Assembly: GCA_028281795.1 (NCBI GenBank)
Contig: JANQJE010000035.1
Span: 1 to 32,328, forward strand
Direction of reading: 5' to 3'
DNA from: Cohaesibacteraceae bacterium
GTDB taxonomy: Bacteria > Pseudomonadota > Alphaproteobacteria > Rhizobiales > MH13
Length of the DNA stretch: 32,328 nucleotides
The translations under genes and the position numbers were made by a program. How positions within the stretch are numbered: the first letter of the stretch is position 1; every line of letters begins with the position of its first letter. Positions 2,530 through 23,415 of this stretch are shown in pieces. The notes beneath the pieces are model-generated. The model saw nothing but the letters and a program-made list of their open reading frames with translations. It was not told the origin of the DNA and did not search any database.

Positions 2530-3723
2530 ATGCTGGAGCGTGTGAACGCTGGAAGCCGAACGGCTTGGTCGGTCAATGACCATGCGCTTGAATATGTCGG
2601 AGCGCAGGTTGTGCTGGCCAATGAGGTCGTTGATGCCGTCGTCCGCGTCGAAGGTGGTCGTATCGCCGGCGTCAACGGATCGACATCGGGGCATGCCGAG
2701 ATCGTGGACCTTGCAGGCCTGACGCTCATCCCTGGCATCGTCGATGTGCACACCGATCATGTCGAAACCCATGTCCATCCCCGTTCCACTGTCCAGTGGG
2801 GTTTCCTGCCTGCACTGATGGCCCATGACGGGGTGGTTGTGTCCGGTGGAACCACGACCGTGTTCGACAGTCTCTCGGTGGGCGCTTCTATGAAGCGGCC
2901 GGAACGGCGCGAAATACTTGGGCCCCTGGTCGACGCCATGGAGTACGGCGTGCGTGAAGGCCTGTTCCGCGCCGATCATCTTTTGCACATGCGTTGCGAA
3001 ATCTCCGATCCGGAGACGGTTGGTCTGGTGGACGCCACCATTGGCAAAGACATCGCGCACCTCGTTTCGGTGATGGATCACACGCCTGGCGACCGTCAGA
3101 GCCCGGACATCGGACGTTGGCTCAATCATATGATCCACGAAATGGAAATCACGCTTGAAGAGGGCCGCGAGCGGATGGCTGAACTGTTCGAGCGGTCAGC
3201 GCGCGTGGGCGCAGAGGTGCGCGCTCATGTGATCAACGCTTCACAGTCTCACGGCGTTCCGTTGATGAGCCATGATGACCGCTCGGTGGAGCATGTCGAT
3301 CAGGCCGATGCCGAAGGTGTGCACATTTCCGAGTTTCCGACCACCCTTGAGGCTGCGCAACGCGCCAAAGCGCTTGGGTTGGCTACGGTTGCCGGTGCGC
3401 CAAACTATCTGCGTGGCGGCTCGCAGTCCGGCAATGTGGCCGTGAAGGCCTTGCTTGAGGAAGGTCTGGTGGACTCGCTGGCATCGGACTATGTGCCGCG
3501 CAGTCTGCTGGATGCGGCCTTTGCCATTGCTGCCGATCCGGACCTTCCCATCGATCTGCCTCAAGCGGTCGGCTTGGTGAGCGATGCGCCGGCGCGCCTC
3601 ACGGGACTTGATGATCGTGGCCGCATCGAAGTTGGCCGTCGTGCGGACCTTGTCGCTGTTCGCCAGATGGCCGGTCAACCGCAGGCCCATGCGGTCTGGC
3701 GCGAAGGCGTGCGTGTTTTCTAG
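2530..3723 (+). CDS. PhnM-like amidohydrolase (second PhnM paralog)
   Basis: A member of the PhnM family, which hydrolyses alpha-D-ribose 1-methylphosphonate 5-triphosphate to the 5-phosphate and pyrophosphate in the C-P lyase pathway. The 397-residue product starts at ATG 2530 after a GAGGA. Residues 74-84 hold the metal-binding HTDHVETHVHP motif. Further family marks are the MDHTPGDRQ block, SHDDRSVEHV, ISEFPTT, GAPNYLRGGSQSGNVA and the C-terminal SDYVPRS metal/base aspartate, so the active site looks intact. It differs markedly in its N-terminus and many positions from the canonical PhnM encoded at 13542-14690. It is followed after nine bases by a sugar isomerase/epimerase gene and faces phn genes. 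It may be a true second PhnM or may process a different ribosyl phosphonate; that distinction is inference. Confidence 0.88.
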   Translation: MLERVNAGSRTAWSVNDHALEYVGAQVVLANEVVDAVVRVEGGRIAGVNGSTSGHAEIVDLAGLTLIPGIVDVHTDHVETHVHPRSTVQWGFLPALMAHDGVVVSGGTTTVFDSLSVGASMKRPERREILGPLVDAMEYGVREGLFRADHLLHMRCEISDPETVGLVDATIGKDIAHLVSVMDHTPGDRQSPDIGRWLNHMIHEMEITLEEGRERMAELFERSARVGAEVRAHVINASQSHGVPLMSHDDRSVEHVDQADAEGVHISEFPTTLEAAQRAKALGLATVAGAPNYLRGGSQSGNVAVKALLEEGLVDSLASDYVPRSLLDAAFAIAADPDLPIDLPQAVGLVSDAPARLTGLDDRGRIEVGRRADLVAVRQMAGQPQAHAVWREGVRVF

Positions 3724-3732
3724 GAGATCAGA

Positions 3733-4566
3733 ATGTCCGCTCTCAAAATTGGTGCCGCGCTCACCACTGCCGATCTGCCAGGCTATCGCGATTGGCTGAT
3801 CGAGGATGAACGCGATCTTGAGATTCAGGATTTCATCTCGACCGAATTGCTTTTTAGCGATTGGCAAGCCCGCGTGGATGAGGCGAAAAAGCTGTTGGAT
3901 GGCTTTACCGGGCGGCTTGGTATCCATGGTCCGTTCTGGGGCGTACCGATCGACAACAACGACCCGGAGATTAGGCCGATCATCACGCGGCGCTATCTGC
4001 GCGCTCTGGATGTTTGCGAGGCCTTGGGTGCGACCCAAATGGTTGTGCACTCGCCCTACTCGACGTGGGATTACAACAATTTCGACAATCGCCCGCGCGT
4101 TGGCAACACGCCATCGGCGCGTGAAGAAAAGATCGAGAACGTGCATGCCGTCATGCGGACTGTTGTGTCCCGCGCGGCCGATTTGGGTGTCACGCTCGTG
4201 ATCGAGAACATTGAAGACATCAATCCGATGGACCGGAAGGAGCTTGCTGCATCCTTCAACAGCGATGCCATAAAACTCTCGATCGACACCGGCCACGCAC
4301 ACTATGCGCATGGTTCGACGGGTGCGCCGCCGGTGGACTATTTTGTGCGCCAGGCCGGAGATATGCTGGACCATGTGCATCTTCAGGATGCTGATGGTTA
4401 CGCCGACCGTCACTGGGCGCCGGGGCGGGGAACGATCCGCTGGCATGCTGTTTTTGAGGCTTTGAGAGACCTGCCGGTTTCCCCGCGCCTGGTGCTCGAG
4501 TTGAGGGACTCTGCCGATATTCCCGAAGCTATGCGGTATCTGGAAGGCGAGGGGCTCGCCGTTTAG
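3733..4566 (+). CDS. Sugar phosphate isomerase/epimerase (xylose-isomerase-like TIM barrel)
   Basis: A 277-residue protein of the AP-endonuclease-2/xylose-isomerase-like TIM-barrel family, which binds divalent metal and isomerises or epimerises sugars and sugar phosphates. Likely metal or catalytic residues are His65 (IHGPF), His106 (VVHSP), Glu158 (VIENIED), Asp185 and His188 (SIDTGHAH), His216 and Asp219 (HVHLQDADG), and Glu256 (LVLELRD). This is the full set expected of an active enzyme. ATG 3733 follows a TAGGAGATCAGA segment with a good ribosome binding site. It sits nine bases behind the phnM-like gene and ends 25 bases before the convergent dctM. Its place suggests it acts on a ribose phosphate released from phosphonate breakdown, but the true substrate is unknown. 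Confidence 0.85.
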   Translation: MSALKIGAALTTADLPGYRDWLIEDERDLEIQDFISTELLFSDWQARVDEAKKLLDGFTGRLGIHGPFWGVPIDNNDPEIRPIITRRYLRALDVCEALGATQMVVHSPYSTWDYNNFDNRPRVGNTPSAREEKIENVHAVMRTVVSRAADLGVTLVIENIEDINPMDRKELAASFNSDAIKLSIDTGHAHYAHGSTGAPPVDYFVRQAGDMLDHVHLQDADGYADRHWAPGRGTIRWHAVFEALRDLPVSPRLVLELRDSADIPEAMRYLEGEGLAV

Positions 4567-4591: not shown

Positions 4592-5947
4592 TTAACCCTG
4601 CAGCAGTAACGGCAGGGCCAGGGTCAGCGACGGGAACAGGATCAATATCCCAACCCGGACAATCTCGGAGGCGAAGAATGGTGCGACGCCGCGAAAAGTC
4701 GTGGCCATGGGGACATCTTTCGCCAGCGCGGATATCACAAACACGTTCATACCCACAGGTGGCGTGATGAGCCCTAACTCGACCACTACCAGCGCAAGAA
4801 TGCCGAACCATATTTTGAGGTGCTCGGTGGACATGCCGAACCCGGATCCTTCCGCTGGCTGAAAGTCGCCACCGTTCATGGCGACAAGCACCGGCCAGAA
4901 GAACGGCAGGACCAACAGAATCATGGAAAGCGAATCCATAAGGCAGCCCAGCAGGATAAGAGCGACCAGCAAGAGCAGCAGCACCATCATTGGTGTAAGG
5001 CCGGAATTGACGGCCATCTCGGCGGCGAACTGTGGAACACCGGCGCGTGACATGAATATCTTCAGCAGCTCGGCCCCCAACAGGATGAGGAATATCATTC
5101 CGGTGGTCGAGGCAGTCTCACGCAGCGAGTCGAGCGTGTTTTTGAGGTTGAGGTATCCTTTCAGGACTCCGAAGGCGAAGACAACGAACACACCGATGGC
5201 TGCCGCCGGTGTCGGGGTATAGAGGCCAGCATAGATGCCACCGATGACAATGCCGAACACGATGACAACAGGCACCATACCGCGGGTTGCAGCCCAGAAT
5301 TCTGCTCGGTCATCTGCACCTTTGGCCGGCCCGGCATCTGGTACGAAGCGGACATAGAGAGCAATTGTCAGAAGAAACAGAAGAACTGCCAGCGCGCCGG
5401 GGATCAGCGCCGCCATAAACATGGTCACCACGTTCGCTTCAACGATGATGGCGTAGATCACCAAGACAACGGACGGCGGTATAAGGATGCCGAGCACGCC
5501 GCCGGCGGCAACCGATCCCGTAGCCAGTGCCGGCGAGTAGTTGTACCTGCGCAATTCCGGCAGAGCGACCTTACCCATCGTTGATGCGGTTGCCAGCGAT
5601 GAGCCACAGACAGCACCGAACCCTGCGCAGGCTGCAATGGAAGCCATAGCAGTTCCTCCGCGCATCCAACCCAGCCAGGCGTTGGCTGCGCGGAACAAGT
5701 CTCGTGAGAGCCCGGTTTTCACAGCCAGCGAGCCCATCAAAATGAACATGGGAACGACCGATAGGTCGTAGATTGAGAACTGGCCGTATGCGAGCGTCTT
5801 GAGCTGTGACAGCAGGACGTTCGAACCGCTCAGCACGGTGGTGCCAATAGCACCAACGAGGATCATCGCGTAGGCAATTGGCACCCGCAAGATGATGAGA
5901 GCGATCAGCGCACCCAGCCCTATCGCTCCAAGTGTGATCGGATCCAT
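4592..5947 (-). CDS. TRAP transporter large permease (DctM family)
   Basis: The large membrane subunit of a tripartite ATP-independent periplasmic (TRAP) transporter, which couples solute import to a sodium or proton gradient. From ATG 5947 (MDPITLGAIGLGALIALIILRVPIAYAM) the product has 451 residues with about a dozen hydrophobic segments. Family patterns seen include VVPMFILMGSLAVKTGLSRDLF, GGTAMASIAACAGFGAVCGSS, GVLGILIPPSVVLVIYAI, YTPTPAAAIGVF and the C-terminal ELGLITPPVGMNVFVI. The open frame extends to 6112, but the extra residues are polar and overlap the dctQ gene, so they were rejected. Its ATG shares one base with the dctQ stop (TGATG). It ends the long pca/pob operon. The aromatic-acid substrate is inferred from that context. 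Confidence 0.93.
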   Translation of the reverse strand: MDPITLGAIGLGALIALIILRVPIAYAMILVGAIGTTVLSGSNVLLSQLKTLAYGQFSIYDLSVVPMFILMGSLAVKTGLSRDLFRAANAWLGWMRGGTAMASIAACAGFGAVCGSSLATASTMGKVALPELRRYNYSPALATGSVAAGGVLGILIPPSVVLVIYAIIVEANVVTMFMAALIPGALAVLLFLLTIALYVRFVPDAGPAKGADDRAEFWAATRGMVPVVIVFGIVIGGIYAGLYTPTPAAAIGVFVVFAFGVLKGYLNLKNTLDSLRETASTTGMIFLILLGAELLKIFMSRAGVPQFAAEMAVNSGLTPMMVLLLLLVALILLGCLMDSLSMILLVLPFFWPVLVAMNGGDFQPAEGSGFGMSTEHLKIWFGILALVVVELGLITPPVGMNVFVISALAKDVPMATTFRGVAPFFASEIVRVGILILFPSLTLALPLLLQG

Positions 5948-6438
5948 CAACCCTCTCCGGTCACGTCCGCCAAAAGCGTCATCACGGCAGCGACGACAAG
6001 CAGGAACAAGGAGATCAGGACGGGAACGAACACCCACCAAGTCGGGATCTGCAGGATCGTGCTGCTGTACCCAAACGTCCTCTGGTCGATCAGGCCGAAA
6101 AACATACGCCATAGCAAAAGGGCGGCGAAGCCTAGAGCCACCGCAGATGCAACGCTGTCGAGAATGCGACGGGCAAGCGGTCCTGCTGCGGATGTAAAAA
6201 GGTCAGCCCGCACGTTTTGTCTATGGAGCTGACAGTAGGGCAGGAACGTGAAGGCTGCGGCGGCAACGCCCATCTCGGTGAGCTCCACACTGCCTGCAAA
6301 CCCCACTCCGAAGAACTCACCGACGACCGCCCAAACATTGACCAGGACCAGGATGACGAGCACCACACCGCCCAGCAGCGCCCAAACGTCGATTGTGCGC
6401 TGGAGTGCGCCCCACAACTGAGTGCTCGTCATCGTCAT
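5947..6438 (-). CDS. TRAP transporter small permease (DctQ family)
   Basis: The small membrane subunit of the TRAP system, 163 residues. Four hydrophobic segments lie at about residues 19-39, 56-70, 91-113 and 132-156, the usual DctQ layout. The central stretch SVELTEMGVAAAAFTFLPYCQLHRQNVRADLF matches the conserved DctQ region with its R-x-D motif. It starts at ATG 6438, three bases after the dctP stop, and overlaps dctM by one base. DctQ binds DctM and is needed for transport. It is very probably co-translated with its partners. Confidence 0.92.
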   Translation of the reverse strand: MTMTSTQLWGALQRTIDVWALLGGVVLVILVLVNVWAVVGEFFGVGFAGSVELTEMGVAAAAFTFLPYCQLHRQNVRADLFTSAAGPLARRILDSVASAVALGFAALLLWRMFFGLIDQRTFGYSSTILQIPTWWVFVPVLISLFLLVVAAVMTLLADVTGEG

Positions 6439-6441
6439 TGC

Positions 6442-7470
6442 TTAGTTGCTTGCCGCCGCGATGGCGCCACGTGCTGCATCGACAAGGGCCGCGCCATCGA
6501 CGCCCGCACTGGAAACCTCGTCGATCCAGCGCTCTACGACCCCTGCCATCGGTGCAAGCAAGGCGACGGTTTCCTCGTCCGTGAGAACGACATGGGTGTT
6601 GCCGGCTTCGGTGGCCATGCCGATACCGAAATCGTCCGTGCCGCGCCAAAGCTCACCAACTTCACGCAACCACTCTTCGTTGGAGGCTTCGCGAAAGGCA
6701 TTCTGAACGTCTGCCGGCAGACTGTCCCAGGTCGCTTTGTTCATGGAGACCTGGAAAACCGACGTTCCGAGACGCGCCATGTCGGCGCCCTCAATCTGGA
6801 AGTCCGTCTGCTCCTGCAACCGCAATGGCGGGATGATCTCCCAGGGTATCAAAGCACCGTCAACAACACCGCGCGACAACGCCTGCGGAAGCTCGGGAAC
6901 AGGCATCGCGACGGGCGTGGCGCCAAGTGCTTCGATTACCCAGGCGCCACTGCGAGAGGGAGTGCGAAGGCTTAGGCCGTCGAGATCTGCAGGTGAACGT
7001 ACTTCGTCGTCGACCATCTGCATCCCGTTTCCAGCATGCACGTGCAGGAACATGACTTCCAAACCGGTATACTCTTCAGCGAGTTGGCCGTCGAACATGG
7101 CCCGCATCGCAAGATTGGTGGCGGTGGGGTCGTTCACGAAAACCGTTGGCAGTTCGAAGACCTCGGTGCGCGGGAACAAGCCCGGCGTGTAGCCGTTCAG
7201 TGTCCAGACCAAATCGACAACACCGTCCCGGGCCTGACTGACCAGTTCAGGTGGACGCCCGCCAAGGGTCATCGCCGGAAAGACCTCAATGTCGACGACA
7301 CCGCCGGAAAGCTCTTCAACGCGTTCCGCCCATGGGACCAGCATCTGGCTATGCGCGGGCGCGCGCTCGCTCAAAAAATGGTGCAGTTTCAGCTGGTAAT
7401 CCTGGCCTGTGGCCGGTGTGGCAAACATTGCTGCAATGGCTGCAGCACCTAAAGCGATCTTGGAACTCAT
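6442..7470 (-). CDS. TRAP transporter substrate-binding protein (DctP family)
   Basis: Periplasmic solute receptor of the TRAP transporter, 342 residues. The N-terminus MSSKIALGAAAIAAMFATPATG is a signal peptide, probably cut before QDYQLKLHHF. The family's central region is clear: PADLDGLSLRTPSRSGAWVIEALGATPVAMPVPELPQALSRGVVDGALIPWEI, where the arginine of LRTPSR is the usual carboxylate-binding residue. ATG 7470 follows GGGAGGAAACC, a strong ribosome binding site. It lies 42 bases behind pobA on the same strand, with only a weak short hairpin between them. The position points to uptake of 4-hydroxybenzoate, protocatechuate or a related acid; this is inference. Confidence 0.93.
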   Translation of the reverse strand: MSSKIALGAAAIAAMFATPATGQDYQLKLHHFLSERAPAHSQMLVPWAERVEELSGGVVDIEVFPAMTLGGRPPELVSQARDGVVDLVWTLNGYTPGLFPRTEVFELPTVFVNDPTATNLAMRAMFDGQLAEEYTGLEVMFLHVHAGNGMQMVDDEVRSPADLDGLSLRTPSRSGAWVIEALGATPVAMPVPELPQALSRGVVDGALIPWEIIPPLRLQEQTDFQIEGADMARLGTSVFQVSMNKATWDSLPADVQNAFREASNEEWLREVGELWRGTDDFGIGMATEAGNTHVVLTDEETVALLAPMAGVVERWIDEVSSAGVDGAALVDAARGAIAAASN

Positions 7471-7512
7471 GGTTTCCTCCCTTGTCCATCGCTGGTGTGT
7501 CGGGTCCTGACC

Positions 7513-8685
7513 CTAGAGTGGTAGCCCGATGTAGTTTTCGGCCAATCCGCGACGTGCGGTTTCGGATCGGGTGAGATAGTCGAATTCGGCTTTCTGCATT
7601 CGCTTCTCGAAGGGCTCATATTGGGGGAAATCATGGAGCATGGTTGTCATGGTCCAGGAGAAGCGTTCCGCCTTCCAGACGCGGCTGAGTGCTTTGGCGG
7701 AATAGCCATCGATGCCTGCGCTGGTATGGTGGTTGAAATGAAGGTCCAGCGCCTGGTGTAGGTAGTGAACGTCGCTCACGGCAAGGTTGAGGCCCTTTGC
7801 CCCGGTGGGCGGCACAATGTGCGCGGCATCGCCCGCCAGGAACAGAGATCCATGGCGCATAGGTTCGCAGACAAAGGACCGCAGCGGCGCCACAGACATT
7901 TCCAGCACTTCGCCGTCGGTGATCAGGCTCCGGGCAACATCGACAGGAATACGGCGTTTTAGCTCTTCCCAGAACCGGTCGGCTGTCCAGTCCGTTGCCT
8001 CTTCACCGATTGGCACCTGGATATAGTACCGGCTGACGGTGTCGGATCGCATGGAGCACAACGCAAAACCGCGCTCATGGGTTGCATAAATCAGTTCGGG
8101 AGCCGCTGGGGGCGTGCGGGAGAGGAGTCCCAGCCATCCGAACGGGTACGCCCGCTCGAACTCCCGGCGCGTGCCGTCGGGGATCATTTGGCGTGCCGGA
8201 CCGTGATAGCCATCGCAGCCAGCGACAAAGCGGGCTTCCAGTCGGTGTTCAGCGCCGTCCTTCTCGTAGACGACCACAGGCTCTTCACCTTCTATGCCTT
8301 CAATCCGCTTGACGGCAGCTTCATGGAGGACGATGGCGTCGCGGGCTTCGGCGGCATCATAAAGGTCCCGCGTGACTTCCGTCTGGCCATAAACCACAAC
8401 GGTCTCACCGGTCAGTCCTTCAAGATCTATCCGCAGGCGTTCATCGTGCCAGCTCAACTCTACGCCTTCGTGAGGCTGACCTTCCCGCGCAACGCGATCG
8501 CCCACACCGGCTTCGGTCAACACACGGACCGTGCCTGATTCCAAAACTCCGGCGCGGATGCGGCTGAGAACATAATCGCGCGATCGCCGTTCGATCACGA
8601 CGTTGTCTATGCCACTCAGGTGGAGCAATTGAGAAAGCAACAGACCCGCTGGGCCGCCGCCGACAATGGCAACTTGTGTTTTCAA
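7513..8685 (-). CDS. pobA: PobA, 4-hydroxybenzoate 3-monooxygenase
   Basis: FAD- and NAD(P)H-dependent hydroxylase turning 4-hydroxybenzoate into protocatechuate, 390 residues against about 394 for the Pseudomonas enzyme. GGGPAG at residues 9-14 binds the FAD ADP part. CDGYHGP at about 157-163 is the DG motif, and AGDAAHIVPPTGAKGLNLA is the GD motif. Tyr200 in LIYATHERGFALCS matches the substrate-binding Tyr201 of the Pseudomonas enzyme, and the C-terminal ENYIGLP carries its Tyr385. The start codon is TTG at 8685: an in-frame TGA lies two codons upstream, and no ATG precedes the flavin motif in frame. The TTG overlaps the pcaB stop (TTGA), with GAGGAC upstream. It is co-transcribed with pcaB and the TRAP genes. 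Confidence 0.97.
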   Translation of the reverse strand: MKTQVAIVGGGPAGLLLSQLLHLSGIDNVVIERRSRDYVLSRIRAGVLESGTVRVLTEAGVGDRVAREGQPHEGVELSWHDERLRIDLEGLTGETVVVYGQTEVTRDLYDAAEARDAIVLHEAAVKRIEGIEGEEPVVVYEKDGAEHRLEARFVAGCDGYHGPARQMIPDGTRREFERAYPFGWLGLLSRTPPAAPELIYATHERGFALCSMRSDTVSRYYIQVPIGEEATDWTADRFWEELKRRIPVDVARSLITDGEVLEMSVAPLRSFVCEPMRHGSLFLAGDAAHIVPPTGAKGLNLAVSDVHYLHQALDLHFNHHTSAGIDGYSAKALSRVWKAERFSWTMTTMLHDFPQYEPFEKRMQKAEFDYLTRSETARRGLAENYIGLPL

Positions 8686-9992
8686 CGTTCATGTCCTCGT
8701 GAACTGGCAAATGCCCGCGCGATATGAGGAGCGCGACCAGTTGCGCTGATCCAGTCCTCCACACCCGTCCAATCGGTTCCGGGATGGTTGGTTTTTAGTG
8801 TTTCGAGCGGGTTGTCTGAGCCCAATGCCGCCGCGACTGCTTTGCGCGCATCAGAGCGCGGCATCCCCTGAGAGAGCCGGTAGGTCAGCATTTCAGACAA
8901 AGCAACCGGCCCGACGCTCTTGAGGTTCTTCGCCATCGCGTCCCGGTTTATCTGGAGCGTTTCGATGATTTTATCGATGTTGTCCAAGGCTGCCGCCGCT
9001 GTGCCGCAGAGGGGCCGGAGGGCCAGCCATTCCAGGCTCCATGCTACACCGTCGCGCTGAGATCCATGGATGGCTGACTCTGCCACTGCACCCTGTAGAT
9101 GGACTGAAAACCGCGCCAGTGATTGCGCGGCCTCCGCACGTACAGGGTTCACTTTGTAAGGCATCGCAGACGAGCGACCCCCGGCAAAACTCACCTCGTT
9201 GATGCCGGTCGATGCCAGGAACGCCAAATCGCTCGCGATACGGCCAGCCTGTGTTGCCAGAGCCGTCATCGCGCCGGCAAACGCCGATATGCGGGCGCGC
9301 CGCGTATGCCATGGGGCCTGATCAACGCCGATTTTGAGCGCCTCGGCCATTGCGAGCCGGACGTCAGGTGCATCACCGGCCAATACGGAGTCATTTCCGG
9401 CGGCGCCGTAAAGCGAGACAACCGCCAACTCGTCCACCGAGGACGACACCGCCTCGGCCGCCTCCAGCAGCCCGGCGCCCCAGACGGATAAAGTGGAACC
9501 GAAGGTTGTCGGCACCGCTCCTTGCGTGCGGGTCCGTGCAAGCTGAAGAGTCTCGGCTTCCTGACCGGCCAACAGAGCTATACGGTCAATCAAATCGTTG
9601 GCCTGGTCCAGCAATGCGCGTTTGAAGTCGCGCAGACACAGGACCATTGCTGTATCCACGATATCCTGCGAAGTGGCGCCCCAGTGCAGCGCATCCAATG
9701 CCTCCCCGCTCAGACTGGTGCGCAGCACGGAAAGCAGGGCGGGTATCGGAACGCCGTCGCTTGCCGCCGTTTCTGCAAGCTCGGATATCTCCGGCTTCAC
9801 GTCTGCCAGGGCCGTTTCAATTGCCTTGCCGGTGCCCGGTGCCGTGATTTCACAGGCTTCGAGTGCGTGACCCAACGCAATCTCCACTTGGATCATCGCC
9901 GCAATCAGAGCATCGTCTGCGAGGTGAGCCTGTGCGACGGGGCTGCCAAAGAGCCTCGCCCAAAGCTGGCTGTCGAGTGGCGTAAGCGTCAT
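8682..9992 (-). CDS. pcaB: PcaB, 3-carboxy-cis,cis-muconate cycloisomerase
   Basis: Converts 3-carboxy-cis,cis-muconate to gamma-carboxymuconolactone in the protocatechuate branch of the 3-oxoadipate pathway. It belongs to the fumarase/aspartase superfamily. The 436-residue product starts at ATG 9992 (MTLTPLDSQLWARLFGS). HWGATSQDIVDTA at about 103-115 and the superfamily signature GGRSSAMPYKVNP at 271-283 are both present; the latter holds the catalytic serine loop. The open frame continues to 10073, but that would run into pcaG and adds non-conserved residues. It follows pcaG by 13 bases and overlaps the TTG start of pobA by four. Confidence 0.95.
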   Translation of the reverse strand: MTLTPLDSQLWARLFGSPVAQAHLADDALIAAMIQVEIALGHALEACEITAPGTGKAIETALADVKPEISELAETAASDGVPIPALLSVLRTSLSGEALDALHWGATSQDIVDTAMVLCLRDFKRALLDQANDLIDRIALLAGQEAETLQLARTRTQGAVPTTFGSTLSVWGAGLLEAAEAVSSSVDELAVVSLYGAAGNDSVLAGDAPDVRLAMAEALKIGVDQAPWHTRRARISAFAGAMTALATQAGRIASDLAFLASTGINEVSFAGGRSSAMPYKVNPVRAEAAQSLARFSVHLQGAVAESAIHGSQRDGVAWSLEWLALRPLCGTAAAALDNIDKIIETLQINRDAMAKNLKSVGPVALSEMLTYRLSQGMPRSDARKAVAAALGSDNPLETLKTNHPGTDWTGVEDWISATGRAPHIARAFASSRGHER

Positions 9993-10005
9993 TGACGGGG
10001 CCGTC

Positions 10006-10605
10006 CTACATATCCAGAAAGACGGTTTCGTTCGGACCTTGAAGCCGAACGTCGAAGTTGTAAGCCCCACCACCCAGCGGCTTTGCCTTCAGTGTCTGCA
10101 AACGCTCCCTGGGTTGCACGCGCCGCAACACGGGGTCCTGGTCGACATCAGCGTCTTCAAAGTAAACCCTCGTCGACAACCCAATGTTGATGCCTCGCGC
10201 CACAATCCAAAGCGCAATATGCGGAGACTGTTCACCACCCTCAGGCAACGCGACCGGTCCCGGTTTGATGGTTTTGAGTGTGAAACGCTCTGTTTGCGGA
10301 TCGATGGCGAAACGGCAGAAACCCTTGACATTTCTGTCCGCGCCTTGCTGCCCGGGAAACAGTCCCTGGGCATCGGCCTGCCAGCTTTCGATCACGGCAT
10401 CCAGCATCGGGTTGCCGGTGGCATCGAGCACCTGTCCGCTAATCTCGATGGGTGAGCCTTTTGCACCCCCAAGGATGGGGGAGACACCCAACTCGGTCTC
10501 GAAGGTGCTCGAGTTGCCCGCGTGCGTGGGCATCAATCCAATGTGAACATACGGTCCAGCCGTTTGAGAGGCGGTTTCGCTATGCGTAACTAGTTTTTGC
10601 ACCAT
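10006..10605 (-). CDS. pcaG: PcaG, protocatechuate 3,4-dioxygenase alpha subunit
   Basis: The non-iron-binding subunit of the intradiol ring-cleaving dioxygenase that opens protocatechuate to 3-carboxy-cis,cis-muconate. The 199-residue product shows ETASQTAGPYVHIGL at the N-terminus and the intradiol core VLDATGNPMLDAVIESWQADAQGLF. This is followed by FTLKTIKPGPV and PHIALWIVARGINIGLSTRVYFED, all characteristic of the alpha subunit. ATG 10605 shares one base with the pcaH stop and follows GGAGGG by seven bases; a GTG at 10608 is an alternative one codon earlier. It is translated with pcaH, with which it assembles as (alpha-beta-Fe)n. Confidence 0.96.
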   Translation of the reverse strand: MVQKLVTHSETASQTAGPYVHIGLMPTHAGNSSTFETELGVSPILGGAKGSPIEISGQVLDATGNPMLDAVIESWQADAQGLFPGQQGADRNVKGFCRFAIDPQTERFTLKTIKPGPVALPEGGEQSPHIALWIVARGINIGLSTRVYFEDADVDQDPVLRRVQPRERLQTLKAKPLGGGAYNFDVRLQGPNETVFLDM

Positions 10606-11330
10606 CACAGTCCCTCCGGTCGGTTCTCGAAGTAGCTCTGACGGCGACCGCGCAGTACAATGTCGAACCGGTACGCAAGGTGATCCAGCGGTCGTGAGCG
10701 GCTCATATCGAGTGGGGCCACAAGCCGGTCGATCTGGCTACGATCTTTGATGGTGTGAGCGATAGGGCAACGATCGATAAGGGGATCGCCCTCGAAGTAC
10801 ATCTGTGTGATCAGACGCTGCCCAAAGCTGGCTCCAAACAAAGAGAAATGAATATGCGCAGGGCGCCAGTCATTGCCTCTGTTGGGCCAGGGATATGCGC
10901 CCGGTTTTATGGTCATAAAGGCATACTGACCCGACTCATCGGTCAGACACCGGCCTGCTCCCCCGAAATGGGGGTCGAGCGGTGCCAGATATCCATCCAT
11001 CTTGTGGCGGTAGCGCCCACCTGCGTTGGCCTGCCACACCTCGACCAGTGAACCCGGTAGACCGCGGCCTTGCTCGTCGAGAACGCGCCCATGAACCAGG
11101 ATTCGTTCGCCAACTGCATTTTCCTTGCCCCCGGTCCAGTTGCGAATAAGGTCATGATCCAGTGGGCCAAGATCGGAGTGACCAAAGCGCGGACCGGATT
11201 CTTCGGTTGGCGTGGATTCGAGAGAAAGAAGCGGCATCGAAGGTGATCGCGTGACGCTTGTCTTGTAGTTCAGGTCGTGCGCAACGGGGTGTGCGTCCCT
11301 ATCGCGCGGGATCAGTCGTCCACCGCTCAT
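10605..11330 (-). CDS. pcaH: PcaH, protocatechuate 3,4-dioxygenase beta subunit
   Basis: The iron(III)-binding catalytic subunit of the intradiol dioxygenase, 241 residues. The iron ligands are visible as Tyr107 (GGRYRHK), Tyr146 (GAYPWPN), His159 and His161 (RPAHIHF). Their spacing of 39, 13 and 2 residues equals that of the Pseudomonas enzyme (Tyr408, Tyr447, His460, His462). Arg156 is in the place of the catalytic Arg457. The core LPGSLVEVWQANAGGRY and the LITQMYFEGDPLI stretch are also family-typical. ATG 11330 overlaps the pcaC stop by four bases (ATGA) and the gene shares one base with pcaG. Confidence 0.97.
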   Translation of the reverse strand: MSGGRLIPRDRDAHPVAHDLNYKTSVTRSPSMPLLSLESTPTEESGPRFGHSDLGPLDHDLIRNWTGGKENAVGERILVHGRVLDEQGRGLPGSLVEVWQANAGGRYRHKMDGYLAPLDPHFGGAGRCLTDESGQYAFMTIKPGAYPWPNRGNDWRPAHIHFSLFGASFGQRLITQMYFEGDPLIDRCPIAHTIKDRSQIDRLVAPLDMSRSRPLDHLAYRFDIVLRGRRQSYFENRPEGL

Positions 11331-11707
11331 GCCTCTCTCTCCATCTCTGCAAAGGTCGCCTTGGCGATTTTCAAGGCATGGTTGGCCCTCGGCACACCGG
11401 CATAAATCGCGACATGCTGGAGAGCTTCAGCGACGTCGCTCTTGGAAGCGCCGGTTTTCGCGGTTGCGCGTATATGCATGGCAAGCTCATCGTAGTTGCC
11501 CAGTGCAGCGAGAAGGGCGATCGTGAGCATTGACCGTTCTCGATCGCTGATCCCGTCGGACTCCCAAACGTGCCCCCAGGCTGCTTCCGTGATCAGGCTT
11601 TGAAACGCCCGATCGAGATCATCGGTTTCGTCTTGGGCGCGATCGACATGAGCGTCACCCAACACTCGCCTGCGAACATCCATGCCGCGGTTGTGACGAT
11701 TACTCAT
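11327..11707 (-). CDS. pcaC: PcaC, 4-carboxymuconolactone decarboxylase
   Basis: Decarboxylates gamma-carboxymuconolactone to 3-oxoadipate enol-lactone. From ATG 11707 the product has 126 residues, the usual size of free-standing PcaC. The AhpD-like core SMLTIALLAALGNYDELAMHIRAT and DVAEALQHVAIYAGVPRANHA is strongly conserved. The open frame extends to 11875, but that portion overlaps pcaD and is not PcaC-like. It begins inside the end of pcaD (eight-base overlap) with GGGAG upstream, and ends in an ATGA overlap with pcaH, so translation is likely coupled along the operon. Confidence 0.96.
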   Translation of the reverse strand: MSNRHNRGMDVRRRVLGDAHVDRAQDETDDLDRAFQSLITEAAWGHVWESDGISDRERSMLTIALLAALGNYDELAMHIRATAKTGASKSDVAEALQHVAIYAGVPRANHALKIAKATFAEMEREA

Positions 11708-12491
11708 TCGGTAAGCTCCCAAAAAAATGAGAGACGGCGGTGTTAAACGCCTCTGGGCTTTCAATCGCCGGCAGATGACCAACACCTTCGAATTCCAAGT
11801 ACTGTGCTTGAGGCAAGCTGTCGGCCAGGGCCTGCACAGCATCTGCCGGTGTTGCCCTGTCGGAGCTTCCGGCAATCACCAAAGCCGGCACATCGATGTT
11901 ATGGACACTTTGGCTGAGATCGGCTTCAGCGATGGCATGGCACAGCGCGACGTAGCCTGCCGACGGAATGCGCTCGAGCATCGTGCGCCAAAGATCCACC
12001 TCCGGCTCGTTGATCGGTGAAGGTTGAGCGAACCACCGCTCCACGATCTCGCTTGCCATTCCAGGCATGCCCAGAGCGTTTACGCGGTCCACCCTGTCGA
12101 TCCACGCTTCGGCCGTCCCGAGTTTTGGTGCGCAGTTGGAAAGAACGAGGGCCTCGACGCGATCAGGCGCCGCCAGCGATAGCTGTTGGGCGACCAATCC
12201 TCCAACGGAGCATCCGATGATTTTGGCACGTTCGAGATCGACGGTGTCCATGCAGGCCAGAACGTCGTCGGCCAGATCGGCGATGCTGTAGGAATATGGA
12301 GCGACCGCACTCAACCCGTGTCCGCGGAAGTCAAGCCGCACGGCAATGGCGAGTTCCGGCAAACCGCGAACCACACTGTCCCACATGCGGGTGTCCGTGC
12401 CCAACGAGTTGAGGAACACCGCGGCATGCGTTCCGCCACATTCGTCTATTCGGGCGTGCAGCGTACCCCAAGGCCGAGAAATGGCGCGCAT
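11700..12491 (-). CDS. pcaD: PcaD, 3-oxoadipate enol-lactonase
   Basis: Alpha/beta hydrolase that opens 3-oxoadipate enol-lactone to 3-oxoadipate, 263 residues from ATG 12491. The catalytic triad is visible: Ser95 in GCSVGG, Asp211 in AGSSDRATP and His239 in GVGHLPA. The DFRGHGLS stretch at 54-61 is also standard. A TTG at 12497, two codons earlier, is better spaced from GGAGG (five bases against eleven), so the true start may be either. It is the first gene of the pca-pob-TRAP operon and is divergent from the pcaQ-type regulator across about 80 bases. Confidence 0.95.
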   Translation of the reverse strand: MRAISRPWGTLHARIDECGGTHAAVFLNSLGTDTRMWDSVVRGLPELAIAVRLDFRGHGLSAVAPYSYSIADLADDVLACMDTVDLERAKIIGCSVGGLVAQQLSLAAPDRVEALVLSNCAPKLGTAEAWIDRVDRVNALGMPGMASEIVERWFAQPSPINEPEVDLWRTMLERIPSAGYVALCHAIAEADLSQSVHNIDVPALVIAGSSDRATPADAVQALADSLPQAQYLEFEGVGHLPAIESPEAFNTAVSHFFGSLPNE

Positions 12492-12530
12492 CAGCAAATT
12501 TTCCTCCCAATCGCCAGCATGACCAAAACC

Positions 12531-12546
12531 ATTTTCGATTGAAAAT
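12531..12546. promoter_or_regulatory. Perfect inverted repeat, likely LysR-type operator between pcaD and pcaQ
   Basis: ATTTTC and GAAAAT flank GATT, giving a 6-4-6 perfect inverted repeat that contains the T-N11-A pattern of LysR-type binding sites. It lies 40 bases upstream of pcaD and 28 bases upstream of pcaQ, in the divergent control region. The sequence is not the published rhizobial PcaQ box (ATAACC-N4-GGTTAA), so binding by this regulator is inferred from position and symmetry. Confidence 0.5.
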
Positions 12547-12562
12547 AGAATTTGGACCTGTT

Positions 12563-12578
12563 TTCATAACCAAATGAA
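12563..12578. promoter_or_regulatory. Second inverted repeat overlapping the pcaQ start, with ATAACC half-site
   Basis: TTCAT at 12563-12567 and ATGAA at 12574-12578 form an inverted repeat around AACCAA; the right arm contains the pcaQ start codon. ATAACC at 12566-12571 equals the left half of the known rhizobial PcaQ box, but the right half (GGTTAA) is absent. Binding here would allow autoregulation of pcaQ. This is a weak inference. Confidence 0.35.
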
Positions 12579-13488
12579 TATACCTCTTGGCCTGAAGCTT
12601 CGCCATATTGAAGGTTTCCTGACTGTCGCCGAATGCGATTCCGTGAGTGAGGCGGCGCGTTGTCTCAATGTGTCGCAACCTGCACTCTCCAAAACGATTG
12701 CAGATGCTGAAATCATTCTTGACCGGAAACTGTTCGACCGTTCCGGCAGGCGACTGACGTTGACCGCGGCAGGTAGCTTGTTTCGCCGCTATGCGCTCGA
12801 TGCAGTCAAAAGCCTGGAGGAAGGTACGTTCGCACTCAACGGGCAGAACAAGGCGACGAACATCTCGGTTGGCGTTTTGCCAACTGTGGCCGGTGGGCTT
12901 TTCCCCTCAGCAACCAAGAGTTTTGTGGCGCTCAGACCGGAAACGACGGTATCGGTGACAACGGGTCCCCATCGCTTCCTGCTGGATCTCTTGCGTCAAG
13001 GAGCCATTGATCTGATGGTCGGGCGCATGCCCACACCAGATGAGATGGTAGGGTTGAACTTTGCATTCCTGTACAACGACGCCATTGAGCTTGTTGCGTG
13101 CTCCGATCACCCAAGCATCAATTTGGGTGCCGTCCGCGCGCTTGTGGAAAATCCGGTCATCTTGCCGACACGGGAGTCGATCATCCGGAAAATCGTTGAT
13201 GGTTTCTTGAATGCCCAAGGCCTGTCAGCCTTGAAACCCAAACTTGAAACCGTATCGCTTAATCTGAGCCTGCCGCTGCTTTTGGATTCAAACATGCTTT
13301 GGTTCATCTCACGCGGGGTCGTCGGTCGCGAACTGGCTGCCGGCAACCTTGCGACGTTCGATCTTGGCGCCGACTATATGTCCGGCGCGGTCGGGGTGAC
13401 ACAAAGGCGCTCTGACACCCAGGACACCAGCATAAACGACCTTATCGAGCTTCTGCATACCGAAGCGCAAAACGTGGGCCGTCGTTGA
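12574..13488 (+). CDS. pcaQ: PcaQ-type LysR-family transcriptional regulator
   Basis: A 304-residue LysR-type regulator with an N-terminal winged helix-turn-helix (residues 10-70: LRHIEGFLTVAECDSVSEAARCLNVSQPALSKTI) and a C-terminal effector-binding domain. The effector domain pattern (ISVGVLPTVAGGLFP, GAIDLMVGRMP, LVACSDHP) and the divergent position beside pcaDCHGB match PcaQ. In agrobacteria and rhizobia PcaQ activates pca genes with beta-carboxymuconate, and in some cases gamma-carboxymuconolactone, as inducer. ATG 12574 lies within an inverted repeat and has no strong ribosome binding site. A related name such as PobR or GalR-type LysR cannot be fully ruled out, but context favours PcaQ. 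Confidence 0.88.
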   Translation: MNIPLGLKLRHIEGFLTVAECDSVSEAARCLNVSQPALSKTIADAEIILDRKLFDRSGRRLTLTAAGSLFRRYALDAVKSLEEGTFALNGQNKATNISVGVLPTVAGGLFPSATKSFVALRPETTVSVTTGPHRFLLDLLRQGAIDLMVGRMPTPDEMVGLNFAFLYNDAIELVACSDHPSINLGAVRALVENPVILPTRESIIRKIVDGFLNAQGLSALKPKLETVSLNLSLPLLLDSNMLWFISRGVVGRELAAGNLATFDLGADYMSGAVGVTQRRSDTQDTSINDLIELLHTEAQNVGRR

Positions 13489-13541: not shown

Positions 13542-14690
13542 TCAGGCGGCTCTGTTACCGTTCGACCAAACGCCGCGCAGCAACGGGACGTCGTCTTCCA
13601 TCCGGAAGCGGATGATGTCGGCCCGCTTGCCGATTTCCAGAACACCGCGATCGTCCAGATGCGTTGCCTTGGCGGGGGCGGATGTCACGGTTGCTATGGC
13701 GCGGGGCAGGTTGTCCCAAATCTTGCCGACTTTCGCCGCTGCATAGAGCAGAGCCGACGGCACGTAGTCGGAGGACAGGATGTCCAGCAGGTTGGCATCG
13801 GCAAGTGTGTGTGCTGCCACATTGCCGGAATGTGAGCTGCCGCGCACGACGTTGGGCGCGCCCATCATGATTGCGATGTCGTGCTTGCGGCAGGCGTGCG
13901 CCGCACCGATGGTCGTGGGGAACTCCGCAAGGTGGATGCCGTGAGATGCGCTGCGCTCCACATGCTCGTGGGTTGTGTCATCGTGGCTGGCCAGCACGGC
14001 ACCGAACCGCGCGGCCGCATCGACAGCAGCGTTTTCATGCGCTTCACCGACCCGCGCTCCCAGCGCTTTGCGCTCGGCCACATGGTCATCGAACGCCTTC
14101 TGCGACATGCCATGCTTGCCGCGCATGTAGGCTTCATACTGCGTTATGTCCGTGAACTGACGCTGGCCCGGGGTGTGATCCATGAGGCTGACAATGCCGA
14201 TACGGTCATCCGGGCCGAAGGTGGCCAGTTCATCCAGCAAGGTGGTGGAGCAGATCTCGGCGCGCAGATGAATGTGGTGGCTGATCTTGAGCAGGCCGGC
14301 CTCGCGCGCGGCAAGGATTTCATTGACCATGGACCGCGCATAAGGCTCGGGCATGCGATTGGAGTTCAACTCCTCGATAAACCCCAGGCGAACCGCGTCA
14401 AATACGGTTGTGATGCCGGTGGACGCCAACTCCGCATCGTGCGCGGTGATCGCCGCGTTGTGTGGCCAGTTGACTCGTGGGCGTGGATGCAGATGACGCT
14501 CCAGATTGTCGGTGTGCAACTCCACCAGCCCCGGAGACACGTAGTCCCCTTCGCAGTCTATGGCATCCGATGAGACACCCGCACCCTGATCAATGGTTGT
14601 GATCGCGCCGTTCTCGAAGCGCACAGCGCCAGTGATCACCTCATCGGCAAGGACAAGGCGTGCATTGGCCAGAATGGTCGGTTGCGTCAT
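13542..14690 (-). CDS. phnM: PhnM, alpha-D-ribose 1-methylphosphonate 5-triphosphate diphosphatase
   Basis: Amidohydrolase-superfamily enzyme that removes pyrophosphate from the ribosyl phosphonate triphosphate made by PhnGHIL, giving the substrate of PhnJ. The product is 382 residues, the usual length. Residues 59-69 carry the metal motif HTDNLERHLHP. HIHLRAEI, MDHTPGQRQ, ASHDDTTHEHV, LAEFPTT, GAPNVVRGSSHSGNVA and the late SDYVPSA aspartate complete the active site. This is the canonical form, unlike the more divergent paralog at 2530-3723. It starts at ATG 14690, 60 bases from the divergent DUF1045 gene, with only a weak A-rich ribosome binding site. It ends 53 bases from the convergent pcaQ. 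Confidence 0.95.
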   Translation of the reverse strand: MTQPTILANARLVLADEVITGAVRFENGAITTIDQGAGVSSDAIDCEGDYVSPGLVELHTDNLERHLHPRPRVNWPHNAAITAHDAELASTGITTVFDAVRLGFIEELNSNRMPEPYARSMVNEILAAREAGLLKISHHIHLRAEICSTTLLDELATFGPDDRIGIVSLMDHTPGQRQFTDITQYEAYMRGKHGMSQKAFDDHVAERKALGARVGEAHENAAVDAAARFGAVLASHDDTTHEHVERSASHGIHLAEFPTTIGAAHACRKHDIAIMMGAPNVVRGSSHSGNVAAHTLADANLLDILSSDYVPSALLYAAAKVGKIWDNLPRAIATVTSAPAKATHLDDRGVLEIGKRADIIRFRMEDDVPLLRGVWSNGNRAA

Positions 14691-14717
14691 ATGGCGTTCT
14701 TTCTTCTATGGAATTTG

Positions 14718-14734
14718 TCGCTGGAGAACAGCGA
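14718..14734. promoter_or_regulatory. Inverted repeat in the phnM / DUF1045 divergent gap
   Basis: TCGCTG at 14718-14723 and CAGCGA at 14729-14734 form a perfect inverted repeat with a five-base centre. It sits in the 60-base gap just before the AAGGAG ribosome binding site (14737-14742) of the DUF1045 gene and 28 bases before phnM. It could be an operator for both genes or a leader hairpin. It does not resemble the operator-like site upstream of phnG. Confidence 0.3.
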
Positions 14735-14750
14735 TCAAGGAGTGTCCGCA

Positions 14751-15437
14751 ATGTCCGATTACAGCCGTTATGCTATTTACGTCCTGGCGGAAGGCGCACT
14801 GCATGAGGAAGCCTCGCGTTGGCTTGGTTGGGACCCGCGTACCGGTAAAACTCTTCCGCATCCCGATGTCGATGGCCTGTCTGCCCCGGTTGAAGATCTG
14901 ACCGCGACGCCGCGCAAATACGGCTTTCATGGAACCATCAAACCGCCCTTTCGCCTGGCTGCGGGCGAAAGCCGTGCGACGCTGGAAACCGCCTGTGAGA
15001 CCGTTCTGTCCGGTTTGCAATCCGCCCAAGTGGATCGCCTGGTTGTGGGGCCGCTGAGCGGGTTTGTTGCCATGCTTCCACAGAACCCCAGTGCCTCGTT
15101 GAACCGGCTTGCCGGGGAGGTGGTGGAGAAGCTCGACGGCCTGCGCGCGCCTGCGAGCGACGATGAACTGGCGCGCCGCCGCAAGTCCGGTCTGACGCCC
15201 CGCCAGGACGCACTGCTCATGCGATGGGGCTATCCGTATGTGATGGAGGAGTTCCGATTTCACATGACGCTGTCGGGCAAAAGGAGCACGGAGGAGGCCG
15301 CCAGTCTGGCGGATCGCCTTGGGCGCCACTTTGCGCCTGTCATACCCATACCGTTCGATGTGAATGCGCTTGGCTTGCTTGGCGAAGATGCAACTGGACG
15401 GTTTCATCTCATCCGGACGTACAGGTTGGCCGGTTGA
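14751..15437 (+). CDS. DUF1045 phosphonate-metabolism protein (2H phosphoesterase fold)
   Basis: A 228-residue protein of the DUF1045 family found in many C-P lyase loci of alphaproteobacteria. Two H-x-T motifs are present, HGT at residues 60-62 (YGFHGTIKPPF) and HMT at 171-173 (FRFHMTLSG). This is the signature of the 2H phosphoesterase / 2'-5' RNA-ligase-like fold, which hydrolyses cyclic phosphodiesters. No phnP is seen in the window. A role in opening 5-phosphoribosyl 1,2-cyclic phosphate, the PhnJ product, is therefore plausible but inferred. ATG 14751 follows AAGGAG by eight bases. It is divergent from phnM, and its last 34 bases overlap the end of the convergent phnN. Confidence 0.9.
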   Translation: MSDYSRYAIYVLAEGALHEEASRWLGWDPRTGKTLPHPDVDGLSAPVEDLTATPRKYGFHGTIKPPFRLAAGESRATLETACETVLSGLQSAQVDRLVVGPLSGFVAMLPQNPSASLNRLAGEVVEKLDGLRAPASDDELARRRKSGLTPRQDALLMRWGYPYVMEEFRFHMTLSGKRSTEEAASLADRLGRHFAPVIPIPFDVNALGLLGEDATGRFHLIRTYRLAG

Positions 15438-15976
15438 AGGGCTGATAGCGCGGCTTCGACGGCCTCGTTGAGGTCACCGGAGTTGTCGATCTCCGTCACA
15501 TCGATGTCCGATGGTATGGCTGGAGCCGCGCGTGACAAGCGTTTGGTTCTGTCTTCCTGCGTTTCCCGCCCGCGGGCGGCCAGCCGCCGGGCCAGTACCT
15601 CAGGCTTTGCCGTGATGGAGAGCACATGGAATCCCGGAAAGGTTCTTGCGCCCTCTTCGAGCTTGCTGCGAGAGAGGTTGGCGATCACGTCATGCCCCTC
15701 GCGCAGATGCTGCTGCGCGCTCTGCGGGATGCCATAGTAGAGGCCGTGCGCGGACCACCAGAGCGCAAAGTCCCCGCGCCGAGCACGGGCGTGAAAGGTG
15801 GCCTCGTCGACCGGTTCATAGTCTTCGCCACCAGCCTCAGGCGCCCGCGTGATGGTTCGCCGTATCCGCACCATCTCGGGCAGGCGCGCGCAGAGAGCGT
15901 TCATCAGACTGTCCTTGCCGACGCCGGATGGGCCGACGACCGCAATGAACCGGCCCTGTTTGGCTGCGTTCGACAT
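15404..15976 (-). CDS. phnN: PhnN, ribose 1,5-bisphosphate phosphokinase
   Basis: Kinase that phosphorylates ribose 1,5-bisphosphate to PRPP, returning the sugar from C-P lyase breakdown to metabolism. The 190-residue product resembles guanylate kinase. The Walker A motif GPSGVGKD is at residues 15-22. RRTITRAPEAGGEDYEPV and FALWWSAHGLYYGIP are typical of PhnN. ATG 15976 lies two bases after the phnL stop, so the gene is in the phnGHIJKLN operon. Its 3' end overlaps the convergent DUF1045 gene by 34 bases. Confidence 0.95.
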   Translation of the reverse strand: MSNAAKQGRFIAVVGPSGVGKDSLMNALCARLPEMVRIRRTITRAPEAGGEDYEPVDEATFHARARRGDFALWWSAHGLYYGIPQSAQQHLREGHDVIANLSRSKLEEGARTFPGFHVLSITAKPEVLARRLAARGRETQEDRTKRLSRAAPAIPSDIDVTEIDNSGDLNEAVEAALSALQPANLYVRMR

Positions 15977-15978
15977 AT

Positions 15979-16662
15979 CTAAGCTGCCGCCTTTGGCGTA
16001 AACGCCGTCACGTTGATTTCCCGATCAGCGATCCGCTCACGGGCGGCCAGATCGTGAAAGATTCCGACAATCGCCGCGCCGGAGGCTTTGGCTTCCTCAA
16101 TGAGCGTCAAGACGGTCTCCCGGTTCTGAGCGTCCAGGCTTGCTGTCGGCTCATCCAGAAGCAGTGCCGGGTAGGTGTGGGCAAAGCCGCGGGCTATGTT
16201 CACCCGTTGCTGTTCACCGCCTGAGAAGGTGGTCGGCGAGAGCTCCCAAAGGCGTTCAGGGATGCGCAAACGGGAAAGAAGATCACATGCTCGCTCACGT
16301 GCTTCTTCTTCGCTCTTGCCGACCGATAGCAACGGTTCGCTGACCACGTCGAGAGTCGGGACACGGGGCACCACCCGCAAAAACTGGCTGACATAGCCCA
16401 GTGTCTCACGTCTCAGCGCGAGGATTTCGCGCGGCTCGGCCCTGGTGATATCGAGACCGTCGATTTCCACCTTGCCGTTTTGGGCCAGATAGTTGCCGTA
16501 GAGAATGCGCATCACCGTGGATTTTCCGGCTCCCGACTCGCCGGTCAGTGCGACGCATTCGCTTGGTTGTACCTCGAAGGCGCCGTCTTCCAGAACAGGA
16601 ATGACGGTTGCGCCCTGATTATGCAGGGTGAAGCTTTTGGCAAGGTTTTCCACTTTGATCAT
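15979..16662 (-). CDS. phnL: PhnL, C-P lyase ABC-type ATPase subunit
   Basis: ABC-type ATPase of the C-P lyase system, needed with PhnG, PhnH and PhnI to form the ribosyl phosphonate; it is not a transporter subunit. The 227-residue product has Walker A GESGAGKST at 41-49, signature FSGGEQQR at 146-153 and Walker B ALLLDEP at 166-172. VSQFLRVVPRVPTLDVVSEPLL is specific to PhnL. ATG 16662 follows TAGGAGCG. It lies nine bases after phnK and two bases before phnN. Confidence 0.96.
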   Translation of the reverse strand: MIKVENLAKSFTLHNQGATVIPVLEDGAFEVQPSECVALTGESGAGKSTVMRILYGNYLAQNGKVEIDGLDITRAEPREILALRRETLGYVSQFLRVVPRVPTLDVVSEPLLSVGKSEEEARERACDLLSRLRIPERLWELSPTTFSGGEQQRVNIARGFAHTYPALLLDEPTASLDAQNRETVLTLIEEAKASGAAIVGIFHDLAARERIADREINVTAFTPKAAA

Positions 16663-16671
16663 CTGGCGCTC

Positions 16672-17448
16672 CTAAACCTGCAGGACGGATGACACGAGCA
16701 GTTGCGTGTAGGCATGCTGGGGGTCGTCCAGAACCTGATCGGTCAGGCCTGTTTCGACCACATCGCCTGACTTCATGACCATCAGCCGGTCGGCCAGCAG
16801 GCGCACCACGGCGAGATCGTGCGTCACAATGATCGCTGAAAGTCCCATCTTGCGCACAAGGCCGCGCAGTAAATCGAGCAGGCGTGCCTGAACTGAGACA
16901 TCCAGGCCACCGGTCGGCTCGTCCATGAAGACAAGACGCGGGCCGGAGACGAGATTGCGGGCAATCTGCAAACGCTGTTGCATGCCGCCGGAAAACTGTG
17001 CCGGTCGGTCATCCATCCGGTCGGTATCGATCTCGACACGCTCCAGCCAGTCTTCCGCCGCGTTTCGAATATTGCCGTAGTGCCGCGCGCCAACAGCCAT
17101 CAGCCGTTCGCCGACATTGCCGCCCGCCGAGACGCGCATGCGCAGTCCGTCGCGCGGATTCTGGTGCACAAAGGCCCAGTCGGTTCGCCCCAGCATGCGC
17201 CGTTCCGGTTCACTCATGGTCAGCGTGTCCCGCGGCCCTTCCGTGCGGGTGTCGAAAAGAATGCGGCCCTCGTCGGGCGGAAGATGGCCGGCCAGACAGT
17301 TGAGGAGCGTCGACTTGCCGGAACCGGACTCGCCGACGACACCCATCACTTCCCCGGGATAGAGCTTGAACGAGACATCGCTGCAGCCGATGCGCGTGCC
17401 ATACCGTTTGGTGAGGTGTTGAACGTCAAGGAGTGGTGTCACGCTCAT
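16672..17448 (-). CDS. phnK: PhnK, C-P lyase complex ATPase subunit
   Basis: ABC-type ATPase that binds the PhnGHIJ core complex at PhnJ; in E. coli its ATP use is coupled to core opening. The 258-residue product has Walker A GESGSGKST at 39-47, a VHQNPRDGLRM Q-loop near 95-104, signature FSGGMQQR at 152-159, Walker B VFMDEPTGGLD at 173-183 and an H-loop at His210. ATG 17448 overlaps the phnJ stop by four bases, and nine bases separate it from phnL. The resemblance to oligopeptide importer ATPases is a family trait and does not imply transport. Confidence 0.96.
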   Translation of the reverse strand: MSVTPLLDVQHLTKRYGTRIGCSDVSFKLYPGEVMGVVGESGSGKSTLLNCLAGHLPPDEGRILFDTRTEGPRDTLTMSEPERRMLGRTDWAFVHQNPRDGLRMRVSAGGNVGERLMAVGARHYGNIRNAAEDWLERVEIDTDRMDDRPAQFSGGMQQRLQIARNLVSGPRLVFMDEPTGGLDVSVQARLLDLLRGLVRKMGLSAIIVTHDLAVVRLLADRLMVMKSGDVVETGLTDQVLDDPQHAYTQLLVSSVLQV

Positions 17449-23329: not shown

Positions 23330-23415
23330 AAGAGGCTTTCTGATCGCGCGTTGCTCTCTGCCTATCACATTCGCGTTGGGTGGGTAGCCTTGGTGCGGGC
23401 AAGCGCGCATAGGAC

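Follow-up and report, generated by a model that had tools for sequence, protein, structure and literature searches.

A PhnM paralog and an adjoining TIM-barrel protein as a possible accessory, phosphate-regulated module of alphaproteobacterial C-P lyase clusters

Why should a C-P lyase cluster that has all its usual genes carry a second phnM, followed by what looks like a sugar isomerase? The question is raised by a 32,328-nucleotide stretch of DNA (the window) from an alphaproteobacterial assembly of 3.33 Mb and 79% completeness. The canonical cluster in the window is complete: it comprises phnM1, the ordinary operonic phnM by TIGR02318 and by tree (13542-14690, minus strand), a DUF1045/RcsF-type 2H phosphoesterase gene, presumed to replace phnP (14751-15437, plus), phnN (15404-15976, minus), phnL, phnK, phnJ, phnI, phnH and phnG (15979-20487, minus; phnJ with all four Fe-S-region cysteines), and the regulator gene phnF (20609-21328, plus). 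An open reading frame on the minus strand at 14706-15407 was rejected as a gene, being the opposite-strand shadow of the DUF1045 gene. At the left end of the window lie, all on the minus strand, phnC (1-434, partial at the edge), phnD for the phosphonate ABC transporter binding protein (616-1536; TIGR03431) and acT for the phn-associated hexapeptide acetyltransferase (1747-2361; TIGR03308). Divergent from acT and phnD, on the plus strand, are the two genes of interest: phnM2 (2530-3723), a PhnM-family amidohydrolase paralog by family HMMs and tree, and ISO (3733-4566), a PF01261 TIM-barrel protein that we predict to be a phosphoester hydrolase. ISO starts 9 bases 3' of the phnM2 stop codon, and an AGGAG spans the stop and the gap.

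Between ISO and phnM1 the window holds a block of about 9 kb (4592-13488) with a TRAP transporter, pobA and pca (protocatechuate) genes and a PcaQ-like regulator. ISO and phnM1 adjoin each other directly, in convergent orientation, in relatives (two of them from the same genus); the block thus has the look of an insertion or rearrangement in the window. Just past phnF, citryl-CoA-lyase-like and CoA-transferase genes occupy 21325-23410. Locus gene maps were made with a codon-usage caller.

A sequence-only reading of this DNA had described two complete PhnM genes that share their motifs and diverge elsewhere, the first with a TIM-barrel gene nine bases behind it and an acetyltransferase gene and phnD facing it, and this description held in every point. 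The motifs are present in both proteins, which are 36% identical. PhnM1 (382 aa) scores 434 bits against TIGR02318, over the cut-off; PhnM2 (397 aa) scores 428 bits against NF011984 (cut-off 260) and 386 bits against TIGR02318, about 4.5 bits under the cut-off of 390.6. We place the phnM2 start at 2530 and not at 2461, the start of a longer frame, because the N-termini of homologues agree with the former and because the direct repeat at 2445-2484 (see below) would otherwise be partly intragenic. The amidohydrolase metal residues (HTD, DH, HDD and SD) are kept in PhnM2, and of these, H, D and HDD do not vary among 34 PhnM proteins of four types, PhnM2 included. Altogether, PhnM2 retains 70 of the 78 positions that are invariant in canonical PhnM, all metal residues among them. 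Six positions set it apart from the canonical enzyme. The clearest is Q169 (E. coli numbering) in the active-site loop DHTPGQRQ: it is D in 24/24 PhnM2 sequences and Q in 98% of canonical PhnM, and the sister group never has Q there. The changes at the other five positions are near-fixed. The retention of the metal residues together with these substitutions suggests a changed specificity of PhnM2 rather than a loss of function. Q169D is a subgroup difference around an intact metal site, and the filing under PhnM stands as a statement about family, not about a shared substrate. PhnM2 was modelled with confidence as an amidohydrolase (mean pLDDT 92.9), and a fold search with the model matched amidohydrolases only; a sequence search with PhnM2 retrieved no solved PhnM structure. 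Alignments for the structure models combined the window sequences with those from a one-genome-per-species scan.

That scan yielded 12 alphaproteobacterial loci with a PhnM2 61-73% identical to that of the window and, joined with genomes of the window's order and a sample of 395 Rhodobacteraceae genomes, gave 24 PhnM2 genomes. In 19 of them ISO lies directly downstream of phnM2, often with short gaps or overlaps. Such recurrence argues that the adjacency is not due to chance, and the pairing is widespread rather than peculiar to this genome, as the sequence-only reading had proposed to survey. In quick trees with SH-aLRT support and no bootstrap, the 24 PhnM2 sequences grouped into one clade (SH-aLRT 98), to which five further sequences are sister; the operonic PhnM1 of these bacteria (100) and a third type, PhnM3 (99), branch separately. 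Barrel proteins encoded in phn loci likewise formed a clade of their own (22 sequences, SH-aLRT 100), of which 18 stand next to PhnM2 and 2 next to PhnM3, with 2 others. None of the three outcomes that the sequence-only reading had named as refuting it was thus observed. The make-up of this clade points to ISO as the constant partner in phn loci, while the type of PhnM can change. The two genes are not an obligate pair, since five of the 24 PhnM2 genomes have no phn-type ISO and since ISO adjoins PhnM3 in other genomes. Those five genomes hold only non-adjacent ISO homologues of other branches, so that the association found in the Rhodobacteraceae sample (an ISO homologue in 10/10 PhnM2 genomes versus 99/395 overall; P = 7e-7) overstates the link. 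The linkage of the pair with phn genes is conserved, as expected of accessory genes of the C-P lyase pathway. PhnM3 itself is coupled to a phnDCE-like importer and a SAM methyltransferase, in a recurring operon phnD'-phnC'-phnE'-methyltransferase-PhnM3 that is often followed by ISO (L008:1850-6170, with equivalents in six other loci).

We then asked what kind of enzyme ISO might be. The sequence-only reading had called it an isomerase with intact metal residues; the residues are indeed intact, while the isomerase label rests on the PF01261 fold only. Against NCBIfam, the best matches are far under their cut-offs (32 bits of a required 300 for D-psicose 3-epimerase, NF051856; 31 of 105 for the cobamide phosphodiesterase CbiR, NF041277), and the Nfo model gave no match at an E-value of 0.001. 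Among 100 ISO homologues, H65, H106, E158, D185, H188, H216, D225 and H227 are 100% conserved and E256 is 99% conserved. Eight of these nine endonuclease-IV-type ligands align by profile with the trinuclear zinc ligands of E. coli Nfo, and the ninth (H65/H69) was matched by eye. All nine positions are also present, in alignments read by eye, in TTHB071 and MJ1311. E. coli UlaE, YcjR and Hyi lack several of them. The epimerase FrlC keeps seven, so the nine residues favour a hydrolase without proving it. The ISO model has a mean pLDDT of 85.6 and is weak at 224-232, with a value below 50 in the loop of D225 and H227; its fold search placed epimerases and TTHB071 in a tie, and endonuclease IV lower. 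We consider ISO more likely to be a phosphoester hydrolase than an isomerase.

We also looked at the neighbours of ISO in 78 alphaproteobacterial loci. Outside phn clusters, it adjoins genes for calcineurin-type phosphoesterases (often with a 4-bp overlap), for 2H phosphoesterases of the DUF1868 and DUF1045 families, for GDPD and for HAD phosphatases, as well as ABC importers of two kinds. For example, ISO adjoins or overlaps by 4 bp a calcineurin-like phosphoesterase gene ahead of Dpp- or Ugp-like ABC importers in seven loci; a DUF1868 2H phosphodiesterase gene follows it directly in L199:12301-13832 and in one other locus, and in a distant alphaproteobacterium (L232:9256-11216) it precedes a DUF1801 gene and a DUF1045 2H phosphoesterase gene. 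Loci with ISO, a phosphoesterase and an importer are likely operons for organophosphate uptake under phosphate starvation. In Phaeobacter, a predicted phosphodiesterase (MED193_11288), a sugar binding protein (MED193_11293) and an ATPase (MED193_11308) go up on phosphate depletion (PMC10132767). The order of these three genes is that of the ISO-MPE-SBP-perm-perm-ATPase type of locus, and ISO would be the gene preceding MED193_11288 in that operon.

Pho-box-like repeats precede 23 of 35 non-phn ISO genes that are first in their operon, mostly 55-100 bases upstream, versus 16 of 173 control genes (Fisher P = 5e-12, a value made too small by counting loci of related species as if they were independent). 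In the window, a direct repeat with an 11-bp period, ATGTCAC-AAAA-CGATCAT-GGAA-CCTGCAC-GGAA-CCGTCAT, lies on the plus strand at 2445-2484, -85 to -46 from the phnM2 start. It resembles a Pho box by consensus match and scores 13.5 of 18, a level at which 4.5 sites are expected per shuffled window. Most phn-linked PhnM2 homologues carry a Pho-box-like site on the same strand and in the same place, at about -70 to -112. Judging by these repeats, phnM2 and ISO may be under PhoB control.

Could the pair offer an alternative exit from the cyclic phosphate, as the sequence-only reading had suggested? The pathway here can be completed without such an exit: the DUF1045 gene and phnN lie in the same cluster, and DUF1045 was present in 22 of the 22 genomes tested. 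None of the genomes gave a match to PhnP over the cut-off, and two studies (PMC3840354, PMC10574752) propose the DUF1045/RcsF 2H phosphoesterase as the replacement of PhnP. As a general rule, a role for ISO as the sole stand-in for the missing PhnP was therefore rejected, given the universal occurrence of DUF1045 among these genomes.

The same role is possible within a second type of cluster. Several Rhodobacteraceae have, beside the canonical genes, a second phnGHIJKLM set, whose PhnJ is 46-47% identical to that of the window, and in many such genomes phnM2-ISO or PhnM3-ISO lies within the second cluster, usually without phnN and DUF1045. In one genome with the second type only, phnN and DUF1045 stand beside the core and there is no ISO. 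Three of the four cysteines C241, C244, C266 and C272 (E. coli PhnJ) are lost in 7/7 second-type PhnJ proteins checked (L007:7943-8857 and six other loci; the clusters also occur in eight further loci), while all four are kept in 14 canonical relatives in the same alignment. From this loss in the Fe-S region, the second core probably does not cleave C-P bonds by radical SAM chemistry. Second-type PhnJ also conserves a Cys behind Gly32, giving PGCQ in place of PGYQ. Of 149 genomes sampled, 8 carry a close homologue (77-89%), in most cases next to a canonical C-P lyase. We raise, as a tentative and rather doubtful extension, that phnM2-ISO or phnM3-ISO could be an undescribed ribosyl-phosphonate branch for the hydrolysis of ribosyl phosph(on)ate esters, working both with the canonical C-P lyase and with the other, PhnGHIJKL-like core that probably lacks this chemistry.

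For the window, our main reading, to which we give a probability of about one half, is that phnM2 and ISO form an accessory, Pho-regulated module. Travelling with gene clusters for phosphonate uptake and C-P lyase, the pair would be switched by phosphate starvation. PhnM2 would most likely trim a ribosyl triphosphate, taking pyrophosphate off a ribosyl phosph(on)ate that carries a 5'-triphosphate and is poorly served by PhnM1. ISO would most likely act as a multinuclear-metal phosphoester hydrolase of the endonuclease IV/CbiR type, hydrolysing a phosph(on)ate ester on the ribose (a 1,2-cyclic phosphate or an uncleaved ribosyl phosphonate) to give ribose 5-phosphate, and the two steps would form a side branch parallel to DUF1045-PhnN. 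We call the module accessory because the canonical pathway lacks nothing when the pair is left out and because Sulfitobacter isolates without an extra phnM still degrade phosphonates (PMC5649143).

Other roles for the pair can be imagined. ISO and PhnM2 might work at the front end, processing imported organophosphorus esters (phosphonate monoesters or sugar phosphodiesters, e.g. of marine polysaccharides) before C-P lyase acts. The position beside phnCDE and acT fits such a role, as do the importer operons in which ISO relatives accompany phosphodiesterases and the ester nature of phosphonates in marine dissolved organic matter (PMC5649143). We nevertheless hold it to be unlikely: PhnM2 keeps the core of PhnM, whose known members act on a ribosyl triphosphate (PMC10574752), and the phn loci have no nucleotide or sugar importer attached. 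A true sugar or sugar-phosphate isomerase/epimerase that feeds by-product ribose 5-phosphate into central metabolism is a poorer fit to ISO, and we find it quite unlikely. D-Tagatose/psicose 3-epimerases and UlaE are among the nearest solved folds by Z, and there are the seven residues shared with FrlC; every NCBIfam isomerase model, however, is far under its cut-off, and the fully conserved H106, D225 and H227 are missing from most epimerases compared. Moreover, ribose 5-phosphate isomerases are housekeeping enzymes, and an extra, phosphate-regulated one would be superfluous.

The two genes might also have no common pathway, PhnM2 being a spare PhnM and ISO a hitchhiking gene of the Pho regulon. 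ISO occurs without PhnM2 in 89 of the 99 Rhodobacteraceae genomes that have it, and some PhnM2 genes stand alone. Yet the adjacency has been maintained across diverged genomes and in two C-P lyase contexts, and phn-linked ISO genes are a single clade, which makes plain redundancy very improbable.

Where bacteria release methane from methylphosphonate in waters that contain oxygen, C-P lyase is regarded as their main route. That its marine gene clusters can hold a second phnM was first reported a decade ago, with no role assigned to that gene (PMC3840354, PMC5649143, PMC9381506). Of the undescribed module that had been suspected at this locus, only the pairing and the clade structure therefore look new. 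In the literature searched, which covered few subscription papers, we found no paper on phnM2 paired with a barrel gene, nor any that links phnM to a sugar phosphate isomerase. The second phnM now has a clade of its own, an enzyme that recurs as its partner and signs of control by phosphate starvation, and together these give the C-P lyase pathway a putative side branch that is concrete enough to test. The misleading 'isomerase' label is also corrected on a widespread family that resembles part of the alphaproteobacterial phosphate-starvation response.

The comparison with known systems shows where the pair departs from them. PhnM2 is like PhnM (alpha-D-ribose 1-methylphosphonate 5-triphosphate diphosphatase) in family HMMs, metal residues, length and phn context, but differs in its own clade, its six near-fixed changes and a position outside the core operon order. 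Its probable counterpart, compared by gene context, is the second phnM-like gene (phnM1 in those accounts) beside a hexapeptide transferase gene and phnE in the marine C-P lyase clusters of the Rhodobacterales fosmid B3_TF_MPn_2 (PMC3840354) and Roseovarius HI0049 (PMC5649143); the parts of these accounts at hand mention no TIM-barrel partner. ISO shares the PF01261 TIM barrel with the hydrolase endonuclease IV and has counterparts of its nine metal ligands, but falls outside that family by HMM and stands among genes for phosphorus uptake, not DNA repair. With CbiR, an EDTA-inhibited cobamide phosphodiesterase of the same superfamily (PMC7733943), it shares the fold but neither the HMM score nor the B12 context, its own context being phn. 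Its closest solved relative by sequence is TTHB071 of Thermus thermophilus (3ayt/3ayv; E = 2e-18, Z = 23), a protein with no assigned function that is 23-25% identical to ISO. Finally, the PhnP, RcsF-DUF1045 and PhnPP exits, the last of which leads to ribose 5-phosphate (PMC8774927), belong to families unrelated to ISO, and a DUF1045 gene is already in its cluster, but the step proposed for ISO would be of their class, the hydrolysis of a ribosyl cyclic phosphate.
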